64,000 bases of DNA from Rathayibacter sp. VKM Ac-2804 (GTDB taxonomy: Bacteria; Actinomycetota; Actinomycetes; Actinomycetales; Microbacteriaceae). The position numbers and the translations under genes are program-made. Below the pieces are notes generated by a model. That model saw only the letters and a program-made list of their open reading frames with translations. It searched no databases and was not told the DNA's origin. Location: assembly GCF_009866655.1 (NCBI RefSeq), contig NZ_CP047420.1:1054001-1118000 (forward strand), written 5' to 3'. Shown piece after piece: positions 25,629 to 64,000 of this stretch; the stretch's first letter is position 1; every line of letters starts with the position of its first letter.

Positions 25629-25882
25629 GTGCTGATCGAGCAGCCCGCGCAGCGCCGCGTCTGCATGCTGATCGAGTAGCCCGCGCAGCGGGCGTATCGA
25701 GATCCACCACCGTGAGAACGCGAGTCTGCAGACCCGCCCTGCTGGTGGTGGCGGGTCTCGATACGCCCCTGCGGGGCTACTCGACCAGCATGACGCGGCG
25801 GCGCCGCGTCCTTTCCCTCACCACCGAGACGCGAAGCGGCTTCGCCGCTCAATACGCCCCTGCGGGCTACTCGACCAGCATG
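25629..25882. repeat. Cluster of dispersed 38-40-bp palindromic repeats (family R)
   Basis: This gene-free stretch carries copies of a repeat whose full form reads GGTCTCGATACG, then a variable GC core, then CTACTCGACCAGCATG. A clear inverted pair is at about 25664-25706 and 25754-25792, facing each other, with partial copies at 25629-25655 and 25851-25882. Further pairs are at 30339-30457 and 63454-63552. No open frame or transposase is present between the copies. Confidence 0.88.
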
Positions 25883-25930
25883 TGTGCGGGCGTCTCTTCC
25901 CAGTAGATCCCCCTCCACCGGAGTCCCGTC

Positions 25931-30315: not shown

Positions 30316-30338
30316 CGCCGGCGCCTCCGGTTGAGGGG

Positions 30339-30457
30339 GATCTCGATACGCGCGCTGCGCGCGCTACTCGATCAGCATGGGCTGCTGTCGATGCGTCAGA
30401 GCGCGAGATCGCTCGAGCATGCTGGTCGAGCAGCCCCGCAGGGGCGTATCGAGACCC
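30339..30457. repeat. Inverted pair of family R repeats
   Basis: Copies at 30339-30379 (GATCTCGATACG...CTACTCGATCAGCATG) and in opposite orientation at 30418-30457 (CATGCTGGTCGAGCAG...GTATCGAGACCC). The internal arms are the reverse complement of each other, so the 120 bp can fold into one long hairpin. It sits between the pheA operon and the ferritin-VIT gene. Confidence 0.9.
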
Positions 30458-30498
30458 ACCGTCGTCAGCACTTCCGGCGGAAGTGGGAGGAATGCCCC

Positions 30499-36103: not shown

Positions 36104-36190
36104 CCCGGCGGCCCCTGCCCCACCGGTCGCCGCCCGCCGCCGCGCGTCCGTCGGTTACCATCGACTGTCTCTCCCCGCGGGGAGCGGCAG

Positions 36191-36278
36191 GGAGGGCTGT
36201 CCGAGCGGCCGATGGAGCCAGTCTTGAAAACTGGTGGGCAGAAATGTCTCTAGGGTTCGAATCCCTAGCCCTCCGCCA
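36191..36278 (+). tRNA. tRNA-Ser (anticodon UGA)
   Basis: Acceptor stem GGAGGGC pairs with GCCCTCC. The anticodon arm CCAGT-CTTGAAA-ACTGG puts TGA at 36225-36227, a long variable arm typical of tRNA-Ser follows, and the T arm is AGGGTTCGAATCCCT. The CCA end is encoded. TACCAT lies about 30 bp upstream as a possible -10. The thiopeptide-like region begins 220 bp after it. Confidence 0.97.
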
Positions 36279-36498
36279 TCTGAGAGCCCGTCCTTCTCGC
36301 CGACGCGGCCGTGCGCCGCGGGAGGGCTCCGCTGCGCGGGCACCGGGCTCGTAGGGCCGACGTCTCCCTCTCCTGGCGCGCGATGTCCTCTCCCTCGGTG
36401 CCGTCGCTAGCCTGACGTTCTTCCGCAGGCGGACCTGTGCCTCTGCAGCGTGGTCGCCTCGGCGATGCGGGCTGCCCGGCGGTCGAGAAGGAGAGCTC

Positions 36499-37842
36499 GT
36501 GACCGACGAAGACGTCCCCGGACCCCGGACCGAGCGCCTTCGCGCGGGCGTGTACGCCTCGCACGACGGCACGGCCACGACCGTGATGGCGTGGCCCCGG
36601 TCCCTGGCGCTCGGGGACGGCGCGGCGGTCGACGAGCGGCTGCGGCAGCTCGTCGAGGGCGTGCCGGGCGGCGCCGACGACCCCGTGACCGCGCGGCTGC
36701 GCGAGGACGGCTGGCTCGTCCAGGAGTTCGGCGACGAGGACGGTGCCGGTTTCGTCATCCGACCGCTGCGGGCCGCGGCGGAACCCGCTCCGGCGCCTTC
36801 CGCGGACCTCGACCTCGACCTCTCGAGGTTCGCCGTGGTCCGCCGCGACGGCCCGGACCTGCTGGTGGAGTCGCCGCTCGCCAGTGCCGAGATCGTGCTG
36901 CACCGGCGGTCGCTCCTCGCCGAGGCGCTCTCGGGCGGCAGCGGGCTCGCCGCGGCCCTGCACCGCGAGCTGCGCCGGCACGGTTTCCTCACGGCACCGG
37001 GCGGTCCGGAGGACACGGAGCTCCGCTTCCGCCAGTGGGCACCCCACGAGCTGCTCTTCTGGGATCGGAGCCGACCGGGCCACCGCGGGGCGATCGGCGA
37101 CTTCGGGGGCACGTGGTGGGGCGGGAAGGCGGGCTTCGCCCCGGAGGGCGCCGTCCCCACGCCGTTCGGCGGGCGCCGGGCCGCGCTCCCACCGGTCGAC
37201 ATCGCCGCCCTGAGGGCGGGCGACCCGCCCTACGCCGAGGTGGTCGAGCGAAGAGCGTCCCTGAGGCAGCACGACGAGTCCGCGCCGATCGATGTCGCCG
37301 AGCTCGGGGAGCTCCTCTTCCGGACGGACCGGGTCCGCGGGACCCGCGTCGACCACGGGACGGAGGTGGTCTGCTCGCCGCGACCGTCCGGCGGCTCGCT
37401 CGCCGAGCTCGAGCTGTACCTGGTCGTCTCGCGCTGCGCCGGGCTCGATCCGGCGTTCTACCACTACGACGCGCACCGCCACGAGCTCGAGGAGGTGTGC
37501 GGCATCGGCCGTCCCGCGGTGCGCAGGATGATCCGCGGCGCGAGCCGGGCGTCGGCGACGGACGCCGTCCCGCAGGTCCTGATCGTCGTCTCCGCCCGCG
37601 TCGGCCGCGTGATGTGGAAGTACGAGAAGATGGCGCTCGAGCTTGTCATGAAGGACACGGGGGTCCTCTACCAGGCGCTCGCCGGAGCGTGCAGCGCGAT
37701 GGGGCTGGCGGGATGCCCGCTCGGCGTCGACGACCCCGTCGCCTTCGCCGAGGCGACCGGTCGCGATCCCCTCCTCGAGTGCAGCGTGGGCCAGTTCCTC
37801 GTCGGCTCGAGCCCGCGGTCGACCCCGGCGGTGGCGGCGTGA
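36499..37842 (+). CDS. SagB-type azoline dehydrogenase (thiopeptide/TOMM E protein)
   Basis: 447-aa FMN-dependent nitroreductase-like enzyme that oxidises thiazolines to thiazoles in azole-modified peptides. Residues about 1-240 are an N-terminal extension typical of thiopeptide-type dehydrogenases. The SagB catalytic domain starts at VVERRASLRQHDESAPI (about 248) and carries the Lys374-Tyr375 pair in VMWKYEKMALE and GVLYQALAGACSAMGLAGCPLG. GTG start with AAGGAG 6 nt upstream. First gene of a four-gene operon whose genes all overlap by GTGA. It corresponds in position and type to the E protein of thiomuracin clusters. Confidence 0.85.
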   Translation: MTDEDVPGPRTERLRAGVYASHDGTATTVMAWPRSLALGDGAAVDERLRQLVEGVPGGADDPVTARLREDGWLVQEFGDEDGAGFVIRPLRAAAEPAPAPSADLDLDLSRFAVVRRDGPDLLVESPLASAEIVLHRRSLLAEALSGGSGLAAALHRELRRHGFLTAPGGPEDTELRFRQWAPHELLFWDRSRPGHRGAIGDFGGTWWGGKAGFAPEGAVPTPFGGRRAALPPVDIAALRAGDPPYAEVVERRASLRQHDESAPIDVAELGELLFRTDRVRGTRVDHGTEVVCSPRPSGGSLAELELYLVVSRCAGLDPAFYHYDAHRHELEEVCGIGRPAVRRMIRGASRASATDAVPQVLIVVSARVGRVMWKYEKMALELVMKDTGVLYQALAGACSAMGLAGCPLGVDDPVAFAEATGRDPLLECSVGQFLVGSSPRSTPAVAA

Positions 37843-39104
37843 GCCTCGTCGTGGACACGAGCGCCTGCGTGGTCGACCGGGAGGGCTGCACCTACGGCAT
37901 GACCGCCTCCGGCGACGTCGTCCTCACGGGCGAGATCGCCGGCTGGATCCGCCTCGTCGCCGCCTGGACCGAGGCGGGGATCGACGTCGACGAGCGCGCG
38001 CGGTCGCTCGATCCCGTCCGGGCCGATCAGCTCCGGCGCGTGCGGAGCGCGATGCTCTCCCTCGGCGTCCTCCGCGAGGCGCCCGTCGCCGGTCGCGTCA
38101 GCTTCCTCGGCGAGACGGCCCTCGCGGAACGGGCGGTGGTGCTCAACGGCCGCGCCCTGCCCGAGTCCTGCCTCGCCGTCGGCCCGGTCGCGGAGCGGTG
38201 GCTGATCGACGAGGTCCGACAGCATCGGGAGCGGACCTTCGGGGCGGTCCTGCTGCACGCGGGCGGGGCGCTCGTCGTCGGGCCGGCCTCCGGGTCGGAC
38301 CTGCTCCCGGTGCTCGTCGCCGTGGCGGAGCGCGGCGTCGAGGCGGGCAGGCCCGTCGAGGGCGTCGTGCGACAGGCCGTCGCTCAGCTCGTCCGCCGCG
38401 TCGAGGCCGGCCGCACGGACCCGTGGCGGGCCAGGACGGTGACCGCGGCGGGATCGGTGCTCACCCGCATCAGCCCCCATCCGTGGCAGGCCGGGCAGCC
38501 GGAGGCGACCGGCCCGTTCGAGGAGCGGGCGACGACGGTCGTCGATCCCGACTTCGGGGTGCTCCGGCTGATCGAGGAGGCGGATCTGCCGCAGGTCCCG
38601 CGCCACCACTCCCGGGTCCGCGTCGCCTGCGACGCCGTCGTCGCGAGGCGCGACGTCGAGGTCGTCGGCGAGGGCGCCGACTTCGCGGCGGCGCGGTCCG
38701 ACGCGGTCCGCCGGGCGCTCGCGGTCCGCGCGGAGTCGGTCCTCGATCCGCGCCGGGTGCTCGACGGGGCCGGTCGGGCGGTCGCCGCTCCCACCGCGAG
38801 CCTCGAGGAGCTGCGCGAGGCCGTCCGCCGCGTGGTCGCCGCGCACACGGCGTCCACCGTTCCGGGCCGGCTGCTGGCCGACGGTTCCACCCTCCGCGTG
38901 CCGGTCTCGCTCGCCTTCCGCTGCTCGGACGCGGCACCGGCGACCGGAGGTCTCGGAGTCGCCGAGACGGCGGAGGAGGCGCTGAGGTTCGCCCGGGAGA
39001 CGGCTCCCGCCTCCGATCCGCGGGCCGTCGTCGTCGACCTGGACCACGACCCCGTCGTGGCGAGACTCGGACTCGTCGTCCGGAAGGTGGTGATCCTGCC
39101 GTGA
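37839..39104 (+). CDS. F-type cyclodehydratase partner / leader-binding protein of the TOMM operon
   Basis: 421-aa protein between the dehydrogenase and the YcaO gene. The first 80 residues alternate strands and helices (SACVVDREGCTYGMTASGD..GWIRLVAAWTEAGIDVDE), fitting the winged-helix recognition element that binds the leader peptide. The rest resembles the Ocin-ThiF-like F proteins of thiopeptide clusters, with a C-terminal block (VRVACDAVVARRDVEVVGEGADFAAARSDAVRRAL) that looks like the N-terminal strand-helix of a YcaO fold without ATP residues. It should deliver the precursor to the cyclodehydratase. The GTG overlaps the previous stop. Assignment is by position plus faint similarity. Confidence 0.68.
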   Translation: MSLVVDTSACVVDREGCTYGMTASGDVVLTGEIAGWIRLVAAWTEAGIDVDERARSLDPVRADQLRRVRSAMLSLGVLREAPVAGRVSFLGETALAERAVVLNGRALPESCLAVGPVAERWLIDEVRQHRERTFGAVLLHAGGALVVGPASGSDLLPVLVAVAERGVEAGRPVEGVVRQAVAQLVRRVEAGRTDPWRARTVTAAGSVLTRISPHPWQAGQPEATGPFEERATTVVDPDFGVLRLIEEADLPQVPRHHSRVRVACDAVVARRDVEVVGEGADFAAARSDAVRRALAVRAESVLDPRRVLDGAGRAVAAPTASLEELREAVRRVVAAHTASTVPGRLLADGSTLRVPVSLAFRCSDAAPATGGLGVAETAEEALRFARETAPASDPRAVVVDLDHDPVVARLGLVVRKVVILP

Positions 39105-40984
39105 GCGCGAACGAGACCGTGGTCGCCGGCCAGGAGGACGGACTGCTCCAGCGAGCGCTGGCCGGCATCGGCGCAGCGAGGGGCGTGACCGTCCGAGCGT
39201 CCGACACCTGGCGGATCCCCGACCCTCCCGCGAACGAGGTGCCGTGGCTGCCTGCGCACGTCGAGGTGAACCGCCTCGTGATCGGGCCCCTCGTGCGTCC
39301 CGGCGTCCCAGGGTGCCCGCGGTGCCTGGCGCTCCGGCGCGAGCGCCTGGGCGGCGCGGAACCCTGGCGGCGGCAGCTGCGGGAGGAGTGCGCGGAGCAG
39401 CTCGAGGGCCGGCGCCCGGAGGCGCTCGACGAGCTGGCGGCCGAGGTCGCGGCGATCGCGCTCGAGCGCCTGCTCGCTCAGGAGCGGGACGACGCGGGCG
39501 CCGCGCGGCGGGTCGCCGTGGTCCGCCTCGACACGCTGGAGGTGGAGTCGCACGCCTTCCTCCCCGAGCCCCTCTGCGAGCTCTGCGGCGACCTCCCGGA
39601 CGACACCGCCGTGCTCGCCCAGCACGTCCTCACGCCGCAGCCCAAGACCGCTCCGTTCGGCGCGCGGATCCGCGACGTCGTCGGCGAGGCCGACGCCCTC
39701 CGCTCCCTCTACATCGACCCCTTCTGCGGGACGATCGCCGCCACACGCCGCGGGGACGAGGGCGGGCTGGTCATGGCGGCCGCGCCGATGCCGATGCGCC
39801 TGGACGGCTTGGTCGAGCCGGGCTACGGCCGCGGTCGCGACTACCGGTCCGCCGAGGTCACCGCGGTGCTGGAGGCGCTCGAGCGGTACGGGGGAGTCGC
39901 CCCGGGCGGGCGCCGGTCGACCGTGCGCGGAAGCTTCCGGGAGCTCGTTGCTGAGGCCGTGCACCCTGACGTCTTCGGTCGGCATCCGGACGAGTCCTAC
40001 GACGACCCGGCCTTCCGGTACCGGCGGTTCGACGAGGACGTGCCGATCCAGTGGGTGTGGGCGCACTCCTTCGCCGAGGGGCGCGCGCGACTGGTCCCCG
40101 AGGCTCTCGCCTACTACTTCTCGCAGCGACTGCGCGGGGACGACCCGGTCTCGTACTACGAGGTCTCGAACGGCTGCGCGCTCGGCTCCTCCTGGGAGGA
40201 GGCCGCCCTGCACGGTCTGCTGGAGACGATCGAGCGCGACGCGTTCCTCTGCACCTGGTACACCCGCACCACGCCCGCCGCCATCGACCTGAGCAGCTGC
40301 CGCGATCCGCTCGTCCCCGCCCAGGCGGTGGCGATCACCGCGGCGACCGGCTTCGACGTCGCCGCCTTCGACGTCACGACGGACTGGGGGATTCCGGCGG
40401 TGTGGCTGCTGGCGACGCGGCAGGGCGGCTCCGGACCGGCCGCGCTCTGCACCGCCGGCGCGGCCCTCGACCCCGAGCGCGCGCTGCTCGGCGCGCTGAG
40501 CGAGCTCGGCCCGATCCTGGCGGACCTCCTCCGGCGCTACCCGGGCGAGGAGGCGCACGCCGCGGAGATGGTGCGCGATCCGCTCGCCGTGCGGACGATG
40601 CTCGACCACTCCGCCCTGTACGCGCATCCGGACGCCCTCCACCGCCTCGAGTTCCTGCGCGATGGTCCGACGATCGGCATCGACGACGTCGGGGGAGCGC
40701 ACCGCGTCCGCCCGGACGCCGCGGATCTGGCGGTCGATCTCCGTGCCGTGGTGGAGCGGATCGGCGAGGTGCTCGTCGTCGACCAGACCACGCCGGAGCA
40801 CCGCGCCGGCGGTTTCTCCTGCGTGAAGGTGCTCGTGCCGGGTGCCGTGCCGATGACGTTCGGCCACCGCAACCGCAGGACCGACGGGCTGCCCCGACTC
40901 CTCGAGCTGCCGCGGCGGCTCGGCAGGCTCGACCGCGACCTGCTCCCGGACGAGCTGAACCCCGACCCGCATCCGTTCCCGTGA
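39101..40984 (+). CDS. Fused zinc-domain/YcaO cyclodehydratase (thiopeptide G protein)
   Basis: 627-aa ATP-dependent azoline synthetase. The N-terminal E1-like or C-protein domain carries a zinc site, Cys72/Cys75 (PGCPRC) and Cys159/Cys162 (PLCELCGD). The YcaO domain (about 200-627) has the ATP-binding motifs SAEVTAVLEALERYGG (from Ser250) and SNGCALGSSWEEAALHGLLE with TIERD (residues 356-380). The C terminus is NPDPHPFP, the PxPxP tail that catalytic YcaO proteins need. It converts Cys residues of the precursor to thiazolines. The GTG start overlaps the F-protein stop. It matches thiomuracin/GE2270 G proteins in layout. Confidence 0.9.
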   Translation: MSANETVVAGQEDGLLQRALAGIGAARGVTVRASDTWRIPDPPANEVPWLPAHVEVNRLVIGPLVRPGVPGCPRCLALRRERLGGAEPWRRQLREECAEQLEGRRPEALDELAAEVAAIALERLLAQERDDAGAARRVAVVRLDTLEVESHAFLPEPLCELCGDLPDDTAVLAQHVLTPQPKTAPFGARIRDVVGEADALRSLYIDPFCGTIAATRRGDEGGLVMAAAPMPMRLDGLVEPGYGRGRDYRSAEVTAVLEALERYGGVAPGGRRSTVRGSFRELVAEAVHPDVFGRHPDESYDDPAFRYRRFDEDVPIQWVWAHSFAEGRARLVPEALAYYFSQRLRGDDPVSYYEVSNGCALGSSWEEAALHGLLETIERDAFLCTWYTRTTPAAIDLSSCRDPLVPAQAVAITAATGFDVAAFDVTTDWGIPAVWLLATRQGGSGPAALCTAGAALDPERALLGALSELGPILADLLRRYPGEEAHAAEMVRDPLAVRTMLDHSALYAHPDALHRLEFLRDGPTIGIDDVGGAHRVRPDAADLAVDLRAVVERIGEVLVVDQTTPEHRAGGFSCVKVLVPGAVPMTFGHRNRRTDGLPRLLELPRRLGRLDRDLLPDELNPDPHPFP

Positions 40985-41808
40985 CGCCCTCGTCCGGGAG
41001 CGACGCAGATGCGCGGACCGACCCGGGTCTGCGCCGGGGCTCGGAGGTCGCCCATCCGCGCCGGCCCGAGACCGCCGATCCGCGGCGGCGGGAGCGCATC
41101 CTCGACGCGATGCGCGATCTCGTCCTCCGCTGGGGCTACCGCAAGGTCTGCATGCAGGACGTGGCCGACGCCGCGCACGTCGGCAAGGGCACGCTCTACC
41201 TGCACTGGAGCAGCAAGGACGAGCTCCTCGACGCGGTCCTCGTCCGCGAGGCGGGCCGGATCGACGCCGAGCTCGGAGCGGCCCTCCTGCGGCGGCCGGA
41301 GCTGGTCGCCTTCGGCCTCACCGCGGCGATGCTCTTCCACGGGACCATGGCGGTGCCGCTGCTCCGCGCCTACAACCGCGGTGACGCCGCGGTCCTCGGC
41401 TCGCGTGGAGCCCGGCCCGGCTCGTCCGACCGGCTCGGGCTCTCCCTCGTCTCCCGGCTCTCCGATCCGCACTACCTCGGGGCGCTCAGCCGGCACCACC
41501 TCGTGCTCGGCGACGCGCGCTCCGAGTCCGGGCGCCTGGCTGTCGGAGCGGTCGTCGGCGGCTTCGTCCTCCGCCCGGAGGGGGCCGCCGACGCGGATCG
41601 GCCGGGTGACTCCGATCGGTCTCGCGACGCCGAGCGGGCCGGCGACTGCGCCCGGCTCCTCGGGACGGTCCTGCAGCGGTCCTTCGGGCAGCCGCCTCAC
41701 GACCGCCACGCCGAGTACGCGGCGGCGGTCGCTGAGACGGTCTCGCCGGCGGGCCGGTGGATCGTTCCGCCTCCCCCTCCGACGGCAGAAGGCTCCCGTC
41801 CCGACTGA
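40981..41808 (+). CDS. TetR-family regulator in the TOMM operon
   Basis: 275-aa transcription factor. The N-terminal 40 residues are charged and disordered. The helix-turn-helix lies at about 45-95 (ILDAMRDLVLRWGYRKVCMQDVADAAHVGKGTLYLHWSSKDELLDAVL), followed by a long ligand-binding domain and a Pro-rich end. The GTG overlaps the YcaO stop, so it is co-translated with the modifying enzymes and may respond to the product or a precursor. Its stop codon lies inside the loop of the terminator hairpin. Candidate targets are the GGTNACC dyads upstream of the peptide gene. Confidence 0.85.
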   Translation: MTPSSGSDADARTDPGLRRGSEVAHPRRPETADPRRRERILDAMRDLVLRWGYRKVCMQDVADAAHVGKGTLYLHWSSKDELLDAVLVREAGRIDAELGAALLRRPELVAFGLTAAMLFHGTMAVPLLRAYNRGDAAVLGSRGARPGSSDRLGLSLVSRLSDPHYLGALSRHHLVLGDARSESGRLAVGAVVGGFVLRPEGAADADRPGDSDRSRDAERAGDCARLLGTVLQRSFGQPPHDRHAEYAAAVAETVSPAGRWIVPPPPPTAEGSRPD

Positions 41809-41823
41809 CGCGGGACGGGAGCC
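41791..41823. terminator. Terminator hairpin between the TetR gene and the precursor gene
   Basis: Perfect 13-bp stem GGCTCCCGTCCCG/CGGGACGGGAGCC (41791-41803 with 41811-41823) with a 7-nt loop containing the TetR stop codon. The convergent precursor gene ends at 41899, so the hairpin can serve both transcripts. No T tract. Confidence 0.75.
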
Positions 41824-41898
41824 GGGGGCGGCACGCGGAGGGACGCGTGCTCGCGAGCCGTGCCGAGGGGCCGAGAGGCCGGCTCTCGGCGACGGCGG

Positions 41899-42063
41899 TC
41901 AGGCGGCGGGCCCGCCGCAGCAGATGTAGCAGACGCAGTTCGAGTCGGCGAGCTCCTTCATGCCGTGACCGGCGGTCAGGGACTCGACTGTCCCGCCCCG
42001 CTCCGCCACCTCGAACACGGTCATCGGCAGGTCCCGGACGTCCGTCGTGTGCTTCTCGTTCAT
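41899..42063 (-). CDS. Thiopeptide-type (thiomuracin/GE2270-like) precursor peptide
   Basis: 54-aa peptide, the probable substrate of the adjoining E/F/G enzymes. The leader from residue 11 carries DLPMTVFEVAERGG and then VESLTAGHGM. From memory this matches the thiomuracin and GE2270 leaders over 30 residues without gaps, ending at ELAD where those read EVGA. The core from Ser41 is SNCVCYICCGGPAA, against SCNCFCYICCSCSS in thiomuracin. Cys43, Cys45, Cys48 and Cys49 are candidate thiazoles. The second Ser needed to close the pyridine ring is absent. ATG with AAGGAG 8 nt upstream. It is transcribed against the operon, from a regulatory region with four GGTNACC dyads. Confidence 0.9.
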   Translation of the reverse strand: MNEKHTTDVRDLPMTVFEVAERGGTVESLTAGHGMKELADSNCVCYICCGGPAA

Positions 42064-42131
42064 GGTCTCTTCTCCTTCGCTCTGTGCGCGTCGTGCCCGG
42101 GACGGGCCCCGAGGCGATGACCCGACTCTGC

Positions 42132-42260
42132 GCCGGTGACCGGCGGGCTCCCTCCTCCGATGAACGGGTGACCGGGATCCGCGGTCGGTCACCCGTCGGC
42201 GCGGACGCCATGGTGGCGCTGCCATCCGCCAGATGGCGGGCGGATATGCGTCGGTGACCG
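42132..42260. promoter_or_regulatory. Operator cluster: four GGT(G/C)ACC dyads
   Basis: Dyads GGTGACC at 42135-42141, 42167-42173 and 42253-42259, and GGTCACC at 42187-42193. The first extends to GCCGGTGACCGGC. The second and third (42165-42174, 42186-42195) are also perfect 10-bp complements of each other. They lie in the 291-bp divergent space between the precursor and the importer gene, 70-200 bp upstream of both starts. Likely binding sites for the TetR or PucR protein; this is an inference. Confidence 0.6.
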
Positions 42261-42354
42261 GATGACTCCGGGGCCGCGCGTCGGCAGAGTGACGGGTGGC
42301 GCCGAACCCTCCCGGGGAGTCGCCCCACCCGCACTTCCTGTCGAAGGAGACACG

Positions 42355-43374
42355 ATGCACGTCCACGGACCCACCACCCGACTGCGCCGCACGGCCGTCG
42401 CACTGGCCGCTGCCGCGGTCGTGCTGCTCCCGCTGAGCGGCTGCCAGAGCGCATCGACGACGCCGGCCGGTGAGCGCCCCGCCGAGTGCGACGGCGTCGA
42501 CCTGACCCGCGTCGGCTACTCGCCCTACTCCAACACCGGCGGGTACTTCCCGCTGGTCGAGAAGGGGCTGGAGGGCATCCTGTCCGACTGCGGCATCGAC
42601 GTCGTCACCTCCGATCCCGACGGCGAGTCCGGCGAGCAGGTGTCCGGAATCGAGAACCTCGTCGCGGCCGGTGCGAAGGCCGTGATCGTGTGCCCGACGG
42701 ACCCGAAGGCGATCTCGCCGGTCGCGCGCCGCCTCACCGGGCAGGACGTCCTCGTGATCGGGCTGGCGACCGACATCCCCGAGGCCGACGTCGTCTTCAA
42801 CCTCGACGACCGCGCCTTCGGCGAGCTCGAGGGCGAGAGCGCCGGCGGCTGGCTGGCGGCGAACCGCGCGGACGAGGTGCCCACCGTCGCGATCCTGCAC
42901 CAGGACTCCGGCGGCGAGCCGCTGATCGCCCGGCACGAAGGCGTCATCGCCGGGATCGACGCCGTGCTCGGCGAGGGGAAGTGGACGCTCGTCAGCGAGG
43001 TCGAGGCGTACCAGGAGGACACCGGCAACGCGCAGACCTCGACCGTCCTGCAGGCGCACCCCGATCTCGACCTCATCGTCGGTCTGAACGACTCCAGCGC
43101 GCTCGGCGCGATCTCCGCGGTCAAGGCCTCCGGACGCACCCCCGGCGAGGACGTCGGGATCGTCACCGGCGGCGAGGACGCGCGCATCCTGCGGGGCGTC
43201 CTCTCCGGCGAGGTCGTCTCCACGGTGGGCCTCTTCCCGGTCCAGCAGGGGGAGATCATCGCGCGCGCGGTCCTCGAGCTCGCCTCGGGCGGCGAGGTCG
43301 AGCGCGAGCAGATCGTGCCCGTCGAGCTGGTGACGGCGGAGAACGCCCAGGGGATCCTGGACTCCCTCGGATGA
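42355..43374 (+). CDS. Ribose-type ABC transporter, substrate-binding lipoprotein
   Basis: 339-aa exported lipoprotein with a signal peptide and lipobox LPLSGC (lipidated Cys30). The mature part is a type I periplasmic-binding fold like RbsB/YtfQ: GYSPYSNTGGYFPLVEKGL, later DLIVGLNDSSALGAISAVK. The ligand is a sugar or related solute, not identifiable here. The ATG at 42355 follows GAAGGAG; a longer start 31 codons upstream would spoil the signal peptide. First gene of the import operon, which is divergent from the thiopeptide-like precursor. Confidence 0.88.
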   Translation: MHVHGPTTRLRRTAVALAAAAVVLLPLSGCQSASTTPAGERPAECDGVDLTRVGYSPYSNTGGYFPLVEKGLEGILSDCGIDVVTSDPDGESGEQVSGIENLVAAGAKAVIVCPTDPKAISPVARRLTGQDVLVIGLATDIPEADVVFNLDDRAFGELEGESAGGWLAANRADEVPTVAILHQDSGGEPLIARHEGVIAGIDAVLGEGKWTLVSEVEAYQEDTGNAQTSTVLQAHPDLDLIVGLNDSSALGAISAVKASGRTPGEDVGIVTGGEDARILRGVLSGEVVSTVGLFPVQQGEIIARAVLELASGGEVEREQIVPVELVTAENAQGILDSLG

Positions 43375-44879
43375 CGGCATCGCTCGAGCCCGCCGCCGTC
43401 CTCACCGTCCGCGGCGTGAGCAAGGCCTTCGGCGGGGTGGCCGCCCTCTCCGGCGTCGACCTGTCGGTCCACGCGGGACGGATCCTCGGCCTGGCCGGCG
43501 CCAACGGGGCCGGCAAGTCCACGCTCATCAACATCCTCACCGGCCAGCTCCCGCCCGACACCGGCGAGCTGCGAGTGGGCGGCGAGCCGGTCTCGTTCTC
43601 GAGCCCGCGCGAGGCGCAGCGCCACGGGATCGGCGTCGTGCGCCAGGAGCTCGACCTCGTGCCCGATCTCACAATCGCCGAGAACCTCTTCCTCGGGGAC
43701 GAGCGCCCGTTCCAGCGGGCCCTGCAGCTCGACCGCCGGCGGATGCGGGAGGCCGCCCGCGCGCTGCTGCGCCGGATGGGGCTGGAGAACGACGTCGACG
43801 AGCTGGTGCGCGACGTGTCGATCGGCGACCGCCAGCTCGTGGCGGCGGCCCGTGCGCTGCGCAGCGCCGGATCCGTGCTGCTGCTGGACGAGCCGACCTC
43901 CTCGCTGACGCCGTTCGAGGCGGCACGCCTCTTCCGCGTCATGCGCTCGCTCAGCGACGAGGGCGTCGGCGTGGTCTTCATCTCGCACCGGCTCGACGAG
44001 GTCGTGCAGCTCTGCGACAGCATCGTCGTGCTGCGGGACGGCCGGGTCGCCGGCGAGTTCGCGGCCACGGCGGACGTGCTGCCGCAGGTCGTCGACGCCA
44101 TGGTGCCGGGCTCCGCCGCCGTCGTCCGGGGCGACCGGGCCCCGTCGCTCGGCGAGCCCGCGTTCGTCGGCGGAGCGATGGTGATCAAGGGCCGCCCGCC
44201 CGTCGACCTCGCGATCCGGCGGGGCGAGGTGCTCGGCGTCTTCGGCCTCGTCGGCGCGGGGAAGTCCTCGATCGGCCGCTCGATCGCCGGCCTCGAGACC
44301 CTGCAGTCCGGCTCGATGCAGCTCGGCGGCCGGCCCTACAGTCCGCGCTCCGCGGCCGCCGGCTTCGCCCGGGGCGTCGCCTACCTCTCCGAGGACCGCC
44401 GCACCGAGGGGATCCTGCCGCACCTCAGCGTGCGGCAGAACATGATCGTCCGGGCCCCGCGGGACGTCGCTCGCGGCGGCGTCTTCGACCGGCGCGCGGT
44501 GACCGCCCTGATCCGCGAGATGACGTCCCGCCTGCGGATCAAGGCAGCGAGCGACGCCCTCGACATCCGCTCGCTCTCGGGGGGCAACCAGCAGAAGGTG
44601 CTCGTCGGGCGCCTGCTCGCCGAGGACCTGTCCCTGCTCGTCCTCGACGAGCCCACCCACGGCATCGACGTCCGGGCCAAGGCCGACCTGATCGACACGG
44701 TCTGGGACCTCACCGGCAAGGGCGTCGCCGTCCTGCTGATCAGCTCGGAGATCGCCGAGCTGCGCGCCGCCTGCGACCGGATCATCGTCGTCCGCAACGG
44801 CGCCGTCGTCCGGGAGCTCCCGGCCACCACCGCCACCGAAGGAGAACTGATGTCCGCAGCGACCGGAGGCGTCTCGTGA
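43371..44879 (+). CDS. Ribose-type ABC transporter, fused ATP-binding protein
   Basis: 502-aa cytoplasmic ATPase with two tandem nucleotide-binding domains, as in RbsA/XylG. Domain 1 has Walker A GANGAGKST and the degenerate signature VSIGDRQ. Domain 2 has Walker A GLVGAGKSS and LSGGNQQKV. The first Walker B is LLLDEPTSSL and the second LLVLDEPTHGID. It powers import for the adjoining permease. The ATG overlaps the lipoprotein stop (ATGA). Confidence 0.92.
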   Translation: MTASLEPAAVLTVRGVSKAFGGVAALSGVDLSVHAGRILGLAGANGAGKSTLINILTGQLPPDTGELRVGGEPVSFSSPREAQRHGIGVVRQELDLVPDLTIAENLFLGDERPFQRALQLDRRRMREAARALLRRMGLENDVDELVRDVSIGDRQLVAAARALRSAGSVLLLDEPTSSLTPFEAARLFRVMRSLSDEGVGVVFISHRLDEVVQLCDSIVVLRDGRVAGEFAATADVLPQVVDAMVPGSAAVVRGDRAPSLGEPAFVGGAMVIKGRPPVDLAIRRGEVLGVFGLVGAGKSSIGRSIAGLETLQSGSMQLGGRPYSPRSAAAGFARGVAYLSEDRRTEGILPHLSVRQNMIVRAPRDVARGGVFDRRAVTALIREMTSRLRIKAASDALDIRSLSGGNQQKVLVGRLLAEDLSLLVLDEPTHGIDVRAKADLIDTVWDLTGKGVAVLLISSEIAELRAACDRIIVVRNGAVVRELPATTATEGELMSAATGGVS

Positions 44880-45874
44880 CCCGCCTCGACACTCCCGCTT
44901 CTGAGCTCGCCCGCGCTCCGCGCCGCGGCCTCGATCAGGAGCGCCTCGCCACGATCGTCCTCCCGGTGGCGCTGGCCGTGATGATCGTCGTCTTCGCCGT
45001 CAGCTCGTCGACCTTCTTCACCGTCGACAACCTGTTCGTCGTGCTCCGGCAGTCGGCGGTGCTCGGCGTCGCGGCGATCGGGGCGACGATCATCCTGATC
45101 GCCGGCCGGCTCGACATCAGCCAGGGCGCGCTGATCGCGGCGTCCGGGATCACCTGCGTGTCGCTGCTGCAGGTCGGGCTGCCGCCGCTCGTCGCCGTCC
45201 TCGGCGCGATCGCGCTCGGGGCCCTGCTCGGGCTCGTCAACGGCGTGCTGACCGAGACGCTCCGGATCCCCGGCTTCATCTCCACGCTCGCCGTGGCGCT
45301 GGTCGTCCGCGGTGCCGCGCAGGTCTGGACCAGCGGGCAGTCGATCGCGGCCCCGGTCGTCGAGGGCTTCGATCTCCTGCTCTGGGTCGGCACCGGGTCG
45401 ATCGGCCCGCTCCCGGTCGCGGTGGTGCTGGTGACCGTGCTCTACATCGTCGCGTGGCTCGTGATGCGCACGACGACCTGGGGGCTGCGCTCGTACGCCA
45501 TCGGCTCCTCCGGCCGGGCCTCGAGGGTGGCAGGGCTCCGGGTGAACGTGCACGCGATGCAGGTCTTCGTGGTCGCCGGGGCGCTCTCGGCAGTGGCGGG
45601 CGTGCTGCTCGCGGGGCGGCTCGGCTCCGGCTCCGCGAACAACGGGCAGGGCGCCGAGTTCGACATCTTCGCCGCGGTCGTCCTCGGCGGGACCTCGCTC
45701 TTCGGCGGCCGCGGCAGCATTCCGCGCACCGCGCTCGGCATCGTCTTCCTCTCGACGCTGAGCAACGGCCTCGTGATCCTGAATGTATCGTCCTACTGGC
45801 AGGGCATCGCGACGGGGACCGTGCTGGTGCTCGCCCTGGCGATCGACCGGTTGCGAGCACGCGATGACGAGTGA
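44876..45874 (+). CDS. Ribose-type ABC transporter, permease
   Basis: 332-aa membrane subunit of the RbsC/AraH family with eight to ten hydrophobic segments. The family loop TTWGLRSYAIGSSGRASRVAGLRVN (about 200-224) and the later AAVVLGGTSLFGGRGSIPRTALG form the ATPase contact region. It uses a GTG start overlapping the ATPase stop. Normal length and no missing segments. It forms the channel for the sugar importer. Confidence 0.92.
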   Translation: MTRLDTPASELARAPRRGLDQERLATIVLPVALAVMIVVFAVSSSTFFTVDNLFVVLRQSAVLGVAAIGATIILIAGRLDISQGALIAASGITCVSLLQVGLPPLVAVLGAIALGALLGLVNGVLTETLRIPGFISTLAVALVVRGAAQVWTSGQSIAAPVVEGFDLLLWVGTGSIGPLPVAVVLVTVLYIVAWLVMRTTTWGLRSYAIGSSGRASRVAGLRVNVHAMQVFVVAGALSAVAGVLLAGRLGSGSANNGQGAEFDIFAAVVLGGTSLFGGRGSIPRTALGIVFLSTLSNGLVILNVSSYWQGIATGTVLVLALAIDRLRARDDE

Positions 45875-45885
45875 GGCTGTGACGC

Positions 45886-46977
45886 ATGGAGGGTCTTCTC
45901 CGGCGGTTGTCCGAGGGCGGCGAGAGCGGTGCGGACGCGCTGCGCGTCGTCAGCTTCTTCGACAAGCTCCAGCAGTTCCGGGCCGGGATCGACGAGCTGG
46001 TGCGGTCGACGGCGATGCTGATCGGGACCGAGGCGGGCTTCGCCGGTCCGGGCGGCGGCTGCGGCTTCGACAGCCTCGGTCGCGCGCGGCCGCAGGATCC
46101 GCCGGCCGGAGCGATCAGCACCGGGATCGGCGGCGGCACCGCGGACGCCGGCCTGGTCTGGGTGGTGCCCTCGAGCAGCGACGCGGACATGGCGCAGCTG
46201 ATCCTCGAGCGCATGTCGCTGACCGCGGCCACGATCCTCATCCGGCAGGCCGACGCGGCCCGGCTGGGCGACGGCGAGCCGCTGCGGATGCTGATCGAGG
46301 CGCTGCCCTCGATCACCGAGCACCGGGAGGAGGCGCTGCGGCGGCTGGGCTTCCGGCCGGACTGGCGGGTCCGCGTCGTCCTCGCCCGAGGCTCGGGCGG
46401 ATCTCTCTCGGACCCGCGCACTTGGCGGGAGTGGTGCGGGCCGGAGCACCGCTGCACGGCTCCGGTGCGGTTCGGGACGGTGCACGCGGTGCTGGTGCAC
46501 GGCTCCGGGACCCTGCCCGGTGCGCTCCCCGAGGGCGCCGAGACCGTCGCCGTCGGAGCGAGCGCCTCGGCGCTGTCGCCGCGGGACTCCTACCTCTCCG
46601 CGCTGCGGACGCTGCGGCTGTGCTCGCCGACGCTCGGTCCGCGCGCTCTCGCGCACGATGCGCTCGGCTCCCTGCGCTGCCTCGCCCGGGTCTCCCCGGC
46701 GGAGGCCGCCGGCTCGGAGCTCGTGCAGCGGATGCGGCTCCTGGTGCGGACGCCCGTCGGCCTGGGCGAGATCCTCGCCCTGGACGCGTACTGCCGCCAC
46801 GCGAACGTCCGCGCGGCGGCGGCGGAGCTCCTGCTGCATCACAGCTCCCTGGGGCACCGGCTGAAGAACGTGGGCGCGAAGCTGGGGATCGACGTGTTCG
46901 AGGCCGCGCAGCGCAACGACGTGTGGCTCGCGCTGCAGCTGCTGCGGATCGCCGAGGCGGAGCCGGACGAGGCGTGA
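45886..46977 (+). CDS. PucR-like transcriptional regulator
   Basis: 363-aa cytoplasmic protein. The N-terminal region (RVVSFFDKLQQFRAGIDELVRSTAMLIG) resembles a GAF-like sensing domain. The C-terminal 70 residues form the PucR-type helix-turn-helix: LDAYCRHANVRAAAAELLLHHSSLGHRLKNVGAKLGID, then a helix (WLALQLLRI). It starts with an ATG 11 nt after the permease stop, so it belongs to the importer operon and probably regulates it in response to the imported solute. It may also act on the divergent precursor gene. Confidence 0.75.
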   Translation: MEGLLRRLSEGGESGADALRVVSFFDKLQQFRAGIDELVRSTAMLIGTEAGFAGPGGGCGFDSLGRARPQDPPAGAISTGIGGGTADAGLVWVVPSSSDADMAQLILERMSLTAATILIRQADAARLGDGEPLRMLIEALPSITEHREEALRRLGFRPDWRVRVVLARGSGGSLSDPRTWREWCGPEHRCTAPVRFGTVHAVLVHGSGTLPGALPEGAETVAVGASASALSPRDSYLSALRTLRLCSPTLGPRALAHDALGSLRCLARVSPAEAAGSELVQRMRLLVRTPVGLGEILALDAYCRHANVRAAAAELLLHHSSLGHRLKNVGAKLGIDVFEAAQRNDVWLALQLLRIAEAEPDEA

Positions 46978-46998
46978 GCCCCCTCGGCGCGGCAGGCG

Positions 46999-47922
46999 GT
47001 GGCCGCCGTGGACGCTGAGCTCGCCGCCGCCACCGAGCTGATGGTGCGGCCGGACCTGAACGACGTCGAGGGGACCCGGCTGCTGATGGGCTCGTCGACG
47101 ATGCAGCCGTCCTCCGCCGAGGTGGAGTTCGGCGGGTCGGTCGTGATCGAGTCGCGCTCGGTGCGCCTCGACGGTCACGACATCGCCCTGCGGCTCTACC
47201 GGCCGTCGGCGTCGGTCGGGTCCGCCCTGCTGTTCCTGCACGGCGGTGCGTTCGTCGCGGGGGACCTCCTCTCCGAGAACGCCCGCTGCCTGCGCTACGC
47301 CGGCGACGCGGGCTGCCTCGTCGTCTCCGTCGACTACCGCCTCGCGCCCGAGCACCCCTACCCGCAGGGCCTGCACGACTGCCGTGCGGTGCTGCGGTGG
47401 ATCGTCGAGCGGGCGGCGGAGCTCGGGATCGATCCCGCGCGGATCGCCGTCGCCGGAGTCAGTGCCGGCGGCGCGCTGGCGGCGGGGGTGAGCATGCTCG
47501 CGCTCGACGAGGGCGAGCGGGTGCCGCGCGCGCAGCTGCTGCTGTTCCCCGTGCTCGACGACCGCCTCCGGACGACGTCGATGCGGGAGTTCGACGCCAC
47601 GCCGGTCTGGGACAACCGCAACGCCGAGGTGATGTGGCGGCTCTACCTCGGCGGGCGGGAGGCCGACGCGTACGCGGCACCGGCTCGCCGCGAGTCGCTT
47701 CTCGGGCTGCCGGAGACGTACCTCCTCGTCGCGGAGCTCGATCCGCTGCGGGACGAGGCGCTCCACTTCGGCGCACGGCTCCTGGAGCAGGGGGTGCCCG
47801 TCGATCTGCGGCTCTGGGCGGGGACGTACCACGTGTTCGATCAGCTCGTACCCGACGCCGCGGTCTCGCGCGCCAGCCTCGAGGATCAGGTGCGGTTCCT
47901 CCGGCGGACCCTGCGCCCCTGA
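46999..47922 (+). CDS. Alpha/beta hydrolase, HSL/Aes-type esterase
   Basis: 307-aa carboxylesterase of the hormone-sensitive-lipase family. The oxyanion motif is FLHGGAFVAGD, the nucleophile Ser is in AGVSAGGAL (GDSAGG-type box), the acid is in VAELDPLRDEAL and the His is in AGTYHVFDQ. It probably cleaves small acyl or acetyl esters. The start is uncertain: GTG at 46999 or 47008, or ATG at 47041. It lies 21 nt after the PucR gene and may be the last gene of the importer operon, perhaps acting on the imported compound. Confidence 0.82.
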   Translation: MAAVDAELAAATELMVRPDLNDVEGTRLLMGSSTMQPSSAEVEFGGSVVIESRSVRLDGHDIALRLYRPSASVGSALLFLHGGAFVAGDLLSENARCLRYAGDAGCLVVSVDYRLAPEHPYPQGLHDCRAVLRWIVERAAELGIDPARIAVAGVSAGGALAAGVSMLALDEGERVPRAQLLLFPVLDDRLRTTSMREFDATPVWDNRNAEVMWRLYLGGREADAYAAPARRESLLGLPETYLLVAELDPLRDEALHFGARLLEQGVPVDLRLWAGTYHVFDQLVPDAAVSRASLEDQVRFLRRTLRP

Positions 47923-47935
47923 GCGGGGAGAGCCC

Positions 47936-48931
47936 TCAGCAGGCGCCGGCCGCGGACCGCGCCGCGCGCGCCGACCGCTCCGCGAGGCGCGCGAACGCCT
48001 CGCGCAGCTCCCGCGGCTCGACGTCGCTGATCGGCGCGTCGAAGCGGGCGATCGTTGCGGCGAGGCCGGGCCAGGACCAGGAGCCGACGCGGATCCGGCA
48101 GCGGCCGTCCGGCTCGACGGTCAGCGTGCCGTCGCCGAGGTACGGGGCGATCCGCGCGGCGTCGGCGTCGAGCGTCGCCGAGCCCCAGTGCGGCCAGGTG
48201 TCCGCTCCGGTCGAGCCCTTGAAGCGGGCGGAGAGGAACGCCGCGGGGTCGCCGCCGGGCACGGTCCGCGGGGTGAAGGCGGCGCCGGTATGGCTGCGGA
48301 GCCGGATCCGGTCGACCCGGTAGGTGCGCCAGTCGTCGCGCTCGGCGGTCCAGCCGATCAGATACCAGCTGCCGCCGGCGAGGACGAGGTGGTGCGGCTC
48401 GGTGGCGCGCACGGCGTCGGTCGGTCCTGCGGGGGAGTCGTAGTCGAACCGCAGGGTCAGCGCGTCGCGGATCGCGTCGCCGATCCGCAGCAGCACCCCG
48501 GAGTCGGCGCGCGCCCCGGCCGGGCGGGTCGCGGTGCCGGCGCTCGCCGCGAGTCCGTCGATCCGGTGCGCCAGGCGGCTCGGCAGCAGTCGTCGGATCG
48601 TCCGAAGCGCCCGCTCGGCCGCCTCGTCGAGGTCGGTGCCGAGGGCGCCGGCGGTCCGCAGCGCCAGGGCGATCACGACGGCCTGCTCGTCGTCGAAGAG
48701 CAGCGGCGGCAGCTCCGTGCCGGCGGCCAGGCGGTAGCCGCCGTCGGGGCCGCGCGTGGTCTCGATCACGTAGTCGAGCTCGCGCAGCCGCTCGACGTCG
48801 CGCCGGACGGTGCGCTCGCTCACCTCCAGCCGCTCCGCCAGCACCGGCGCCGACCAGTCGCGGCGCGACTGCAGCAGCGACAGGAGGGCGAGCAGCCGCT
48901 TCGAGGTGGAGGGCGAGGAGGCGATGGGCAC
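47936..48931 (-). CDS. WYL-domain transcriptional regulator (YafY-like)
   Basis: 331-aa DNA-binding protein. A DeoR-type helix-turn-helix covers about 5-60 (KRLLALLSLLQSRRDWSAPVLAERLEVSERTVRRDVERLRELDYV). The WYL ligand domain (about 135-230) contains LAGGSWYLIGWTAERDDWRTYRVDRI, and a C-terminal extension follows. The GTG at 48931 fits the family; an upstream extension would add an unlikely basic tail. Divergent from a VOC gene 119 bp away, a frequent regulator-target pair. Confidence 0.85.
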   Translation of the reverse strand: MPIASSPSTSKRLLALLSLLQSRRDWSAPVLAERLEVSERTVRRDVERLRELDYVIETTRGPDGGYRLAAGTELPPLLFDDEQAVVIALALRTAGALGTDLDEAAERALRTIRRLLPSRLAHRIDGLAASAGTATRPAGARADSGVLLRIGDAIRDALTLRFDYDSPAGPTDAVRATEPHHLVLAGGSWYLIGWTAERDDWRTYRVDRIRLRSHTGAAFTPRTVPGGDPAAFLSARFKGSTGADTWPHWGSATLDADAARIAPYLGDGTLTVEPDGRCRIRVGSWSWPGLAATIARFDAPISDVEPRELREAFARLAERSARAARSAAGAC

Positions 48932-49050
48932 GGATCGATCATCGCGCGCGAAGCGGACGTTCCCTGGCCGGTACCGACGAGATGGTGGAGTCAGCCCCGG
49001 GAAACGGGGAGAACCGCGGCCCACCCGCCGCGCACTGAAGGAGCACACCC

Positions 49051-49506
49051 ATGACCGCAGCAGTCGTCGCACACCTCAACTTCACCGGCCGGGCCCGCGC
49101 GGCCCTCGAGTACTACGCCGCCGCGTTCGGCGGTCAGGCGGTCGTCCGCACCTACGGCGACTTCGGGATGCCGGCGGGCCTGCCCGACGCCGAGCGGGTC
49201 GTCCACGGCCAGGTCGTCGGCGCGGAGGGCTTCAGCGTGATGGCGTACGACGTCCCCTCGAGCGAGGCGGATCTGCAGGCGGGAGCCACGCGCCGCGAGA
49301 ACGGCACGACGATCACCGACCGTCCCTTCTTCCTGGCGCTGCAGGCCGCGACCCTCGAGGAGGCGACCGGCCACTGGGACGCGCTCGTGGACGGAGCGAG
49401 CATCGTCGAGCCGCTCGCGGCGTCGGCCTGGTCGGCCGGGTTCGGCATGCTCACCGACCGTTTCGGGGTCGTCTGGGCGATCAGCGTCGTCGAGCAGCAG
49501 GGCTGA
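49051..49506 (+). CDS. VOC-fold (PhnB/3-demethylubiquinone-type) protein
   Basis: 151-aa glyoxalase-superfamily protein. It opens with VVAHLNFTGRARAALEYYAAAFGG and has GQVVGAEGFSVMAYDVP, matching the PhnB/YjdN group of VOC proteins. The typical metal residues of active glyoxalases are not all evident. The ATG has AAGGAG upstream. Divergent from the WYL regulator, which probably controls it. The substrate is unknown. Confidence 0.82.
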   Translation: MTAAVVAHLNFTGRARAALEYYAAAFGGQAVVRTYGDFGMPAGLPDAERVVHGQVVGAEGFSVMAYDVPSSEADLQAGATRRENGTTITDRPFFLALQAATLEEATGHWDALVDGASIVEPLAASAWSAGFGMLTDRFGVVWAISVVEQQG

Positions 49507-49707
49507 GCGCGGGCGGGTGGCCGTGCGGCGCGGCCGCCCGGACCCTCCGGCGCGAATTCCGGGCGACGGATGGCTTTCCGGAGCGCTCTGGGTACTATGT
49601 CCCGACGCGGTGGGAGTCCCCTCCTCCGCGCCCGCGGGTCCCGGACCCGCCCTCAGCTCCACACCCCCGGCCCCACCAGCCCCAGCCCTCAGACGAACGG
49701 GAGACGG

Positions 49708-63453: not shown

Positions 63454-63552
63454 CATGCTGGTCGAGCAGCCGTGGAGCGGCGTATCGAGACCCGGCCTGC
63501 TGAGCACGGTGGATCTCGATACGCCCTCTGCGAGGGCTACTCGATCGACATG
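63454..63552. repeat. Inverted pair of family R repeats
   Basis: Copies at 63454-63493 (CATGCTGGTCGAGCAG...GTATCGAGACCC) and, facing it, 63511-63552 (GGATCTCGATACG...GGCTACTCGATCGACATG). The short 17-bp spacer and complementary arms allow a long hairpin. A diverged partial copy begins near 63427. It lies between two minus-strand genes. Confidence 0.88.
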
Positions 63553-63563
63553 TCGCCGCCGAG

Positions 63564-64000
63564 TCAGCCCTTGTAGCGCTCGCCCACCGGCACTTCGACC
63601 GGCAGGGTGTTGCCGGGCTGCGCGAGCGGGCAGGCCCAGGCCGGGTCGTACGCGCAGGAGGGGTTGTAGGCGAAGTTGAAGTCGAGCACGAGCGTCGACG
63701 GCGTCGCTCCGGTGCCGAGGTCGGCGCCCTTCACGGTGTCGAGCAGGTAGCGGCCGCCGCCGTACGTGCCGCCCGGCGTGCCGGCCAGCGCGTCCTTGAC
63801 GGGGACGAAGAGCCCGCCGCCGTAGGAGCCGAGCTTCCAGACGTCGAGCGTCCCCGCCCGGGGCACCTCGACGGTCCCGACGAGCTCGAACGGCACCGTG
63901 CCGTCGGTGCCCGTCTCGACGTCCATCCGCCGCGCCTCCTCGGCCGGGGCGACCTCGAGCTCGAACCGCCAGGCGGCGTCGTACGGCGCGATCGGCAGCG
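63564..64000 (-). CDS. DUF1684 protein (N terminus cut by the window edge)
   Basis: The C-terminal about 145 residues of a DUF1684-family protein. The family blocks are present: GRYLLDTVKGADLG, LVLDFNFAYNPSCAYDPAWACPLAQPGN and LPVEVPVGER, with two Cys in the characteristic AYNPSCAYDPAWAC. The frame continues past base 63926 to the edge (APYDAAWRFELEVAPAEEARR), so the gene is longer to the right. Function unknown; a secreted or membrane-linked role is often assumed. Confidence 0.85.
   Translation of the reverse strand, partial: LPIAPYDAAWRFELEVAPAEEARRMDVETGTDGTVPFELVGTVEVPRAGTLDVWKLGSYGGGLFVPVKDALAGTPGGTYGGGRYLLDTVKGADLGTGATPSTLVLDFNFAYNPSCAYDPAWACPLAQPGNTLPVEVPVGERYKG

Follow-up and report, generated by a model that had tools for sequence, protein, structure and literature searches.

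The 64,000-nucleotide stretch of the Rathayibacter sp. VKM Ac-2804 genome analysed here (the window) carries what is probably a working linear azole-peptide system, which would derive from a thiomuracin/GE2270-type cluster and yield a peptide carrying about four thiazole rings. The genes for a SagB-type dehydrogenase (E), its F partner, a YcaO cyclodehydratase (G) and a TetR regulator form a coupled operon, and the gene of the precursor peptide A is convergent to it:

36499 to 37842, plus strand: E, SagB-type FMN dehydrogenase (azoline to azole), 447 aa (TIGR03605, 117.8 bits, cut-off 78.4)
37839 to 39104, plus strand: F, leader-binding partner, shortened, 421 aa (profile-profile match, E 7e-15)
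37839 to 38084, plus strand: RRE domain of F, residues 1-82
38592 to 39101, plus strand: YcaO-fold C-terminal part of F, residues 252-421
39101 to 40984, plus strand: G, E1-like/YcaO cyclodehydratase with CxxC pairs, 627 aa (TIGR03604, 338.1 bits; TIGR03882, 113.2 bits)
40967 to 40981, plus strand: PHPFP tail at the C-terminal end of G
40981 to 41808, plus strand: TetR-family regulator coupled to G, 275 aa (PF00440, 48.2 bits, cut-off 24)
41791 to 41823, no strand: possible terminator, a perfect 13-bp inverted repeat located between the convergent genes of TetR and the precursor
41902 to 41943, minus strand: core of precursor A, SNCVCYICCGGPAA, residues 41-54, four Cys and one Ser/Thr
41944 to 42063, minus strand: leader of precursor A, residues 1-40 (NF033399, 62.9 bits, cut-off 29)
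42164 to 42196, no strand: possible operator, a 33-bp inverted repeat with perfect arms of 11 bp that lies upstream of the precursor

The preliminary description of this DNA had recognised a SagB dehydrogenase, an F-type partner and a YcaO protein with a PxPxP tail beside a thiomuracin/GE2270-like leader, and the family and profile matches listed above bear out each of these assignments. E in addition matches PF22767 and PF00881 above cut-off and the ThcOx/CyaGox structures with an E-value of 4e-38, and it is 44% identical over 435 columns to the E protein of N. jabiensis; its assignment rests on these matches. The Lys-Tyr pair, which we take to be the catalytic motif of E, is present in all three Rathayibacter that carry the system. 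A conserved-column test on E returned zero near-invariant columns because its rows combine differing SagB-type proteins. F is considerably shorter than its N. jabiensis counterpart (421 versus 611 aa). Family profile searches matched it to no curated family, its predicted model has a mean pLDDT of 58.8 with residues 82-235 below 50, and Foldseek found no match for this model at E ≤0.001; the fold was assigned from a second-look alignment together with the profile-profile match. G keeps 82 of the 88 near-invariant columns, as defined on 16 G proteins from 12 LanB-bearing loci, in all three Rathayibacter.

Precursor A is a 54-aa member of the thiomuracin/GE37468 family, and NF033399 is its only NCBIfam match at E ≤0.01. 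The boundary between leader and core was taken from the thiomuracin-type alignment, which puts the predicted cleavage point after residue 40. In the three Rathayibacter the core reads SNC(V/I)CYICCGGP(AA/DD), with four Cys, one Ser and no Thr throughout, and the position of the second Ser is occupied by Gly-Gly. Since there is only this single Ser and no Thr, the pyridine that is built from two core Ser cannot form. Among the nearby repeats, the one at 41791 to 41823 lacks a T-run terminator according to the terminator scan, and promoter and terminator scans of 36200-42500 returned nothing. The upstream repeat is mostly conserved in the sister genomes; as a shared operator it was discarded, there being no second copy in the window at ≤3 mismatches.

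The LanB-like dehydratase and the pyridine synthase had been described as missing from the window, where iterated B, C and D profiles indeed find nothing, and their absence extends to the whole genome, in which PF04738 and PF14028 have zero matches at E ≤1. PF14028 tests for the pyridine synthase as well, because it picks up the C protein of N. jabiensis as well as its D protein. As the built-in controls of this search gave no signal, the genomes of 24 relatives were used as controls instead. PF14028 was found in 22 of them and PF04738 likewise in 22 (21 above cut-off), including R. iranicus of the same genus, and the only two with neither are VKM Ac-2857 and VKM Ac-2856, which carry the same system. 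The outcome that would have refuted the preliminary reading, dehydratase and cyclase genes elsewhere in the genome, was thus looked for with a negative result. For the LanM type, DUF4135 had no match, which is a weak absence as no control gave a signal. Of what makes up a thiopeptide system the genome thus contains the leader and the azole-forming E, F and G proteins, and the genome-wide search found neither the LanB-like glutamylation and elimination proteins nor the pyridine synthase. The silent built-in controls and the DUF4135 search leave some room for dehydration and cyclisation genes that went unrecognised or were lost from the assembly, in which case the product would be a thiopeptide. 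We regard this as extremely improbable, for the 4.09-Mb genome lies on one contig and is 99.99% complete, the profiles find their targets in the relatives and miss them in both sisters, and a core with one Ser and no Thr offers nothing for a pyridine.

All five genes are open in the three species, with lengths of 447/447/445 aa for E, 421 for F, 627/627/626 for G, 275/263/264 for TetR and 54 for A; for some genes of the sisters, reading began at the aligned position, which in some cases is no start codon. E, F and G are under purifying selection, with dN/dS of 0.30-0.35, 0.33-0.39 and 0.20-0.25, respectively, and 0.24-0.29 for TetR; no bootstrap upper limit exceeds 0.51 in the two pairs that were resampled (60 resamples). 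The precursor is looser (0.20-0.66, with a bootstrap upper limit of 1.65 in one pair). This wide interval and the shortened F would also suit a decaying thiopeptide cluster that lost its dehydratase and cyclase genes by accident and retains E, F, G and A as relics. A truncated thiopeptide-type relative does exist (L028/L087), with a LanB-N fragment, a short E, no C or D and a precursor core that is not Cys-rich and lacks the thiopeptide pattern. However, such decay is unlikely here, as the genes are open and constrained in three species, the four core Cys are kept in each of them, and the Ser lost from the core is one for which the missing enzymes alone have a use, which is a matched change. 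Open genes in three species and a core with one Ser and no Thr argue against both decay and an assembly gap.

Trees of G place the system among thiopeptide clusters, as the phylogeny proposed in the preliminary description was meant to examine: G falls with thiomuracin-type G proteins. The Rathayibacter trio joins N. jabiensis with a support of 98/99 in a tree of 32 rows and again of 98/99 in one of 40 rows, from which L039, L040 and L087 were omitted. In a tree of 30 rows the trio, N. jabiensis and L099 group at 97/97, the step that joins L099 to the trio being weaker (88/74). For the last tree 13 rows (L019 and L020 twice each, L026, L027, L032, L034, L036, L039, L040, L088 and L093) were dropped, being near-copies, loci cut short or long branches; L087 and L100 were skipped too. 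A contig end interrupts L039, so that its missing LanB carries no evidence. Because the group without the genes nests beside clusters that have them, the dehydratase/cyclase half was likely lost from a thiopeptide ancestor.

N. jabiensis DSM 45507 (L017), whose cluster is of the thiomuracin/GE2270/GE37468 type, shares with the window the leader family, the E-F-G gene order and the core pattern N-C-x-C-Y-I-C-C, and identities of 48% for G, 44% for E and 33% for F over 172 columns. It differs in having B, C and D (PF04738, and PF14028 twice) and, in its core SCNCFCYICCSCSSA, six Cys and four Ser. L099 and L100, from the same order as the window, are full B-C-D-E-F-G clusters with the same leader family (NF033399, 83.9 bits) and with identities of 44% for G and 35% for E, F not being detected by BLAST with that of the window. 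Like that of the window, their core STNCFCYPCCSCSAPSSSA has no Cys at position 2, but they keep B, C, D and the later Ser. Core Ser/Thr number four in N. jabiensis, seven in L099 and one in the window, and only two in the LanB-bearing L086. The same product could in principle have another history, in which the dehydratase half was never present and a thiomuracin-like leader was acquired, and F-dependent loci without dehydratases do occur in Nocardia, Streptomyces, Nocardiopsis and Saccharothrix. We consider this quite unlikely, since G of the trio joins LanB-bearing clusters with high support in all three trees, the weaker L099 step apart, and the E-F-G order is that within B-C-D-E-F-G of N. 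jabiensis.

The precursor family occurs in 11 of 394 genomes of the class (seven above cut-off) and in 5 of 396 of the order (three above cut-off), the own genome counted in both. Among the 17 loci with precursor matches outside the own genome, all 13 from the class have a LanB-N profile match (only a fragment in L087, which has neither C nor D), and several precursors in this group are distant. Of the four from the order, two have the full set; the other two, whose precursor matches stay below cut-off, lack every one of B to G. A search by G in named genomes led to 27 loci, 16 with a local LanB-N match and 11 without: the two Rathayibacter sisters, four Nocardia, two Streptomyces, one Nocardiopsis, one Saccharothrix and one locus cut by a contig end. 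As the LanB label changes four times on each G tree, with at least three changes forced by supported branches, the dehydratase-less state has, judging from these trees, been gained or kept more than once. The loci of Nocardia (L025-L027, L029), Streptomyces and Nocardiopsis (L021, L022, L024) and Saccharothrix (L030) are F-dependent azole loci with no local LanB match, and their candidate precursors are Cys-rich in Nocardia, Nocardiopsis and Saccharothrix; only that of Saccharothrix resembles NF033399, below cut-off (13.2 versus 29 bits). Two class-level loci, L091 and L094, show the reverse reduction, as in pyritides: they have LanB-N, C and D matches and no E, F or G match, with a related leader and cores ending in SWLV.

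How new is such a system? Its architecture had been put forward as a distinct class that combines a thiopeptide leader with a linear polythiazole product. The combination holds up, with the product class deduced from gene content, but its layout is not unprecedented: F-dependent linear azole systems are already known, and what is new is the thiomuracin-type descent with a matching core change. Heterocycloanthracin (HCA) and other systems of this kind share the RRE-bearing F, the fused E1-YcaO cyclodehydratase and the dehydrogenase, and the available portions of their descriptions name no dehydratase (PMC10634744, PMC7470986). The precursor of the window belongs to the thiomuracin/GE37468 family only and shows no HCA-type match, and its G groups with thiopeptide G proteins in trees built without HCA sequences. 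Goadsporin and the coryneazolisins resemble the window in that they have no pyridine synthase and a linear product is expected, according to the part of the 2015 YcaO survey at hand, but they retain LanB-like dehydratases; the same part knows only two cases of F proteins that belong to neither HCA nor thiopeptide clusters (PMC4603692). A literature search found no report of a system like this one, which specialist papers on thiopeptides or thiomuracin may already describe; an R. toxicus comparison, in the section available, mentions predicted thiopeptide clusters (PMC7143919).

With the azole module as the only one in the Rathayibacter set, a linear peptide with four thiazoles is to be expected. 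We infer that the RRE of F would bind the leader of A and that G, aided by F, would use ATP to convert the four core Cys into thiazolines, which E would oxidise to thiazoles, the last two forming a tandem bithiazole, with a total loss of about 80 Da. No Ser would be dehydrated and no pyridine ring would form, as the genes for the split LanB and the pyridine synthase have disappeared and the second Ser is replaced. In excerpts of the literature, the micrococcin equivalents of F, G and E alone make six thiazoles from Cys, before and as a requirement of all later steps (PMC10634744), and TbtEFG turns every Cys of a designed substrate into a thiazole or thiazoline (PMC9247985). A separate protease would remove the leader, since thiopeptides are described as shedding it during formation of the pyridine heterocycle by the pyridine synthase (PMC10885120), a step absent here. 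Among the annotated genes at 36.5-49.5 kb none could be recognised as a leader protease or peptide exporter, which together with the short F and the loose dN/dS of the precursor counts against the linear-thiazole reading. It could mean that E, F and G act only in part, giving thiazolines or fewer than four rings, or that the leader stays on the modified peptide and this acts within the cell, as would the loss of the leader-shedding synthase. Then again, E and G retain their family features, and linear azole peptides may, in the account available, rely on proteases from outside the cluster, for instance TldD/E (PMC10885120), so that we give partial action or a retained leader very little probability.

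Pyritides are likewise reduced relatives of thiopeptides that, as far as the source at hand describes them, keep the opposite half: the dehydratases and the cyclase (MroBCD), with no azoles (PMC9247985). EF-Tu is the target that thiomuracin and GE2270 inhibit. On balance we lean towards the idea that the thiopeptide pathway consists of two separable halves that can be set free, pyritides keeping dehydration and pyridine and Rathayibacter the thiazoles, here for a dedicated linear tetrathiazole with a bithiazole end, its own mode of leader loss and a role other than at EF-Tu, with the cores fitting the enzymes that remain. The system would then be an experiment of nature in which a complex antibiotic pathway was trimmed, as the lost enzymes and the altered core correspond in three species and full clusters, among them one type with the second core Cys already missing, serve as outgroups. 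It predicts that selection keeps the azole synthetase for a pyridine-free product, provides a small synthetase of three enzymes whose substrate is short and has four Cys, and poses the question of how a thiopeptide-type leader comes off without the enzyme that normally sheds it.

The host has a single YcaO match in its genome. Among named records, Rathayibacter sp. VKM Ac-2857 and VKM Ac-2856 come nearest to it (G 91% identical), and the precursor core of VKM Ac-2856 is the same as that of the window. Close G proteins (90-100%) occur in 3 of 15 Rathayibacter genomes, the own one counted, and matches of any kind at E ≤1e-20 in 5 of these 15 and in 12 of 398 genomes of the family, figures that, like all the wider sampling, come from samples or word-pattern scans and not from exhaustive lists. 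Seven plasmid records match G at 34-42% identity, none of them close, and PADLOC found no defence-system match for E, F, G or TetR. The genes lie in a segment behind a tRNA gene:

36191 to 36278, plus strand: tRNA-Ser(TGA), left edge of the insertion
36298 to 49532, no strand: 13.2-kb segment in the window and both sisters, replaced by 522 bp in the closest genome without it

The interval behind the tRNA gene (36279-49532 in the window; L061-L064) varies in length in all four cluster-less Rathayibacter examined, with 522 bp in the closest and 1.7-2.5 kb in the other three, and may thus be an insertion hotspot. A search for an integration signature, as exact direct repeats of at least 12 bases between 36151-36700 and 48901-49700, gave none. 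Other genes in the segment code for a ribose-type ABC transporter, PucR- and WYL-type regulators, an esterase and a member of the glyoxalase family. When the window is compared with VKM Ac-2856, dS is 0.24-0.35 for E, F, G, TetR and A but 0.04-0.08 for the genes of the transporter, PucR and the esterase, which makes it probable that the biosynthetic part extends no further than the precursor gene. The latter genes (42355-47922) are 96-98% identical to those of VKM Ac-2856, above the 84-91% of the adjoining biosynthetic genes, and this block was therefore probably exchanged recently. Finally, an interspersed palindromic repeat around GTCGAGTAGCCC...GGGCGTATCGAGA lies in intergenic regions of the window (25661-25913, 30335-30470 and 63488-63565) and of L015 (6710-7238), and several of its copies adjoin the cluster in the sister genomes.
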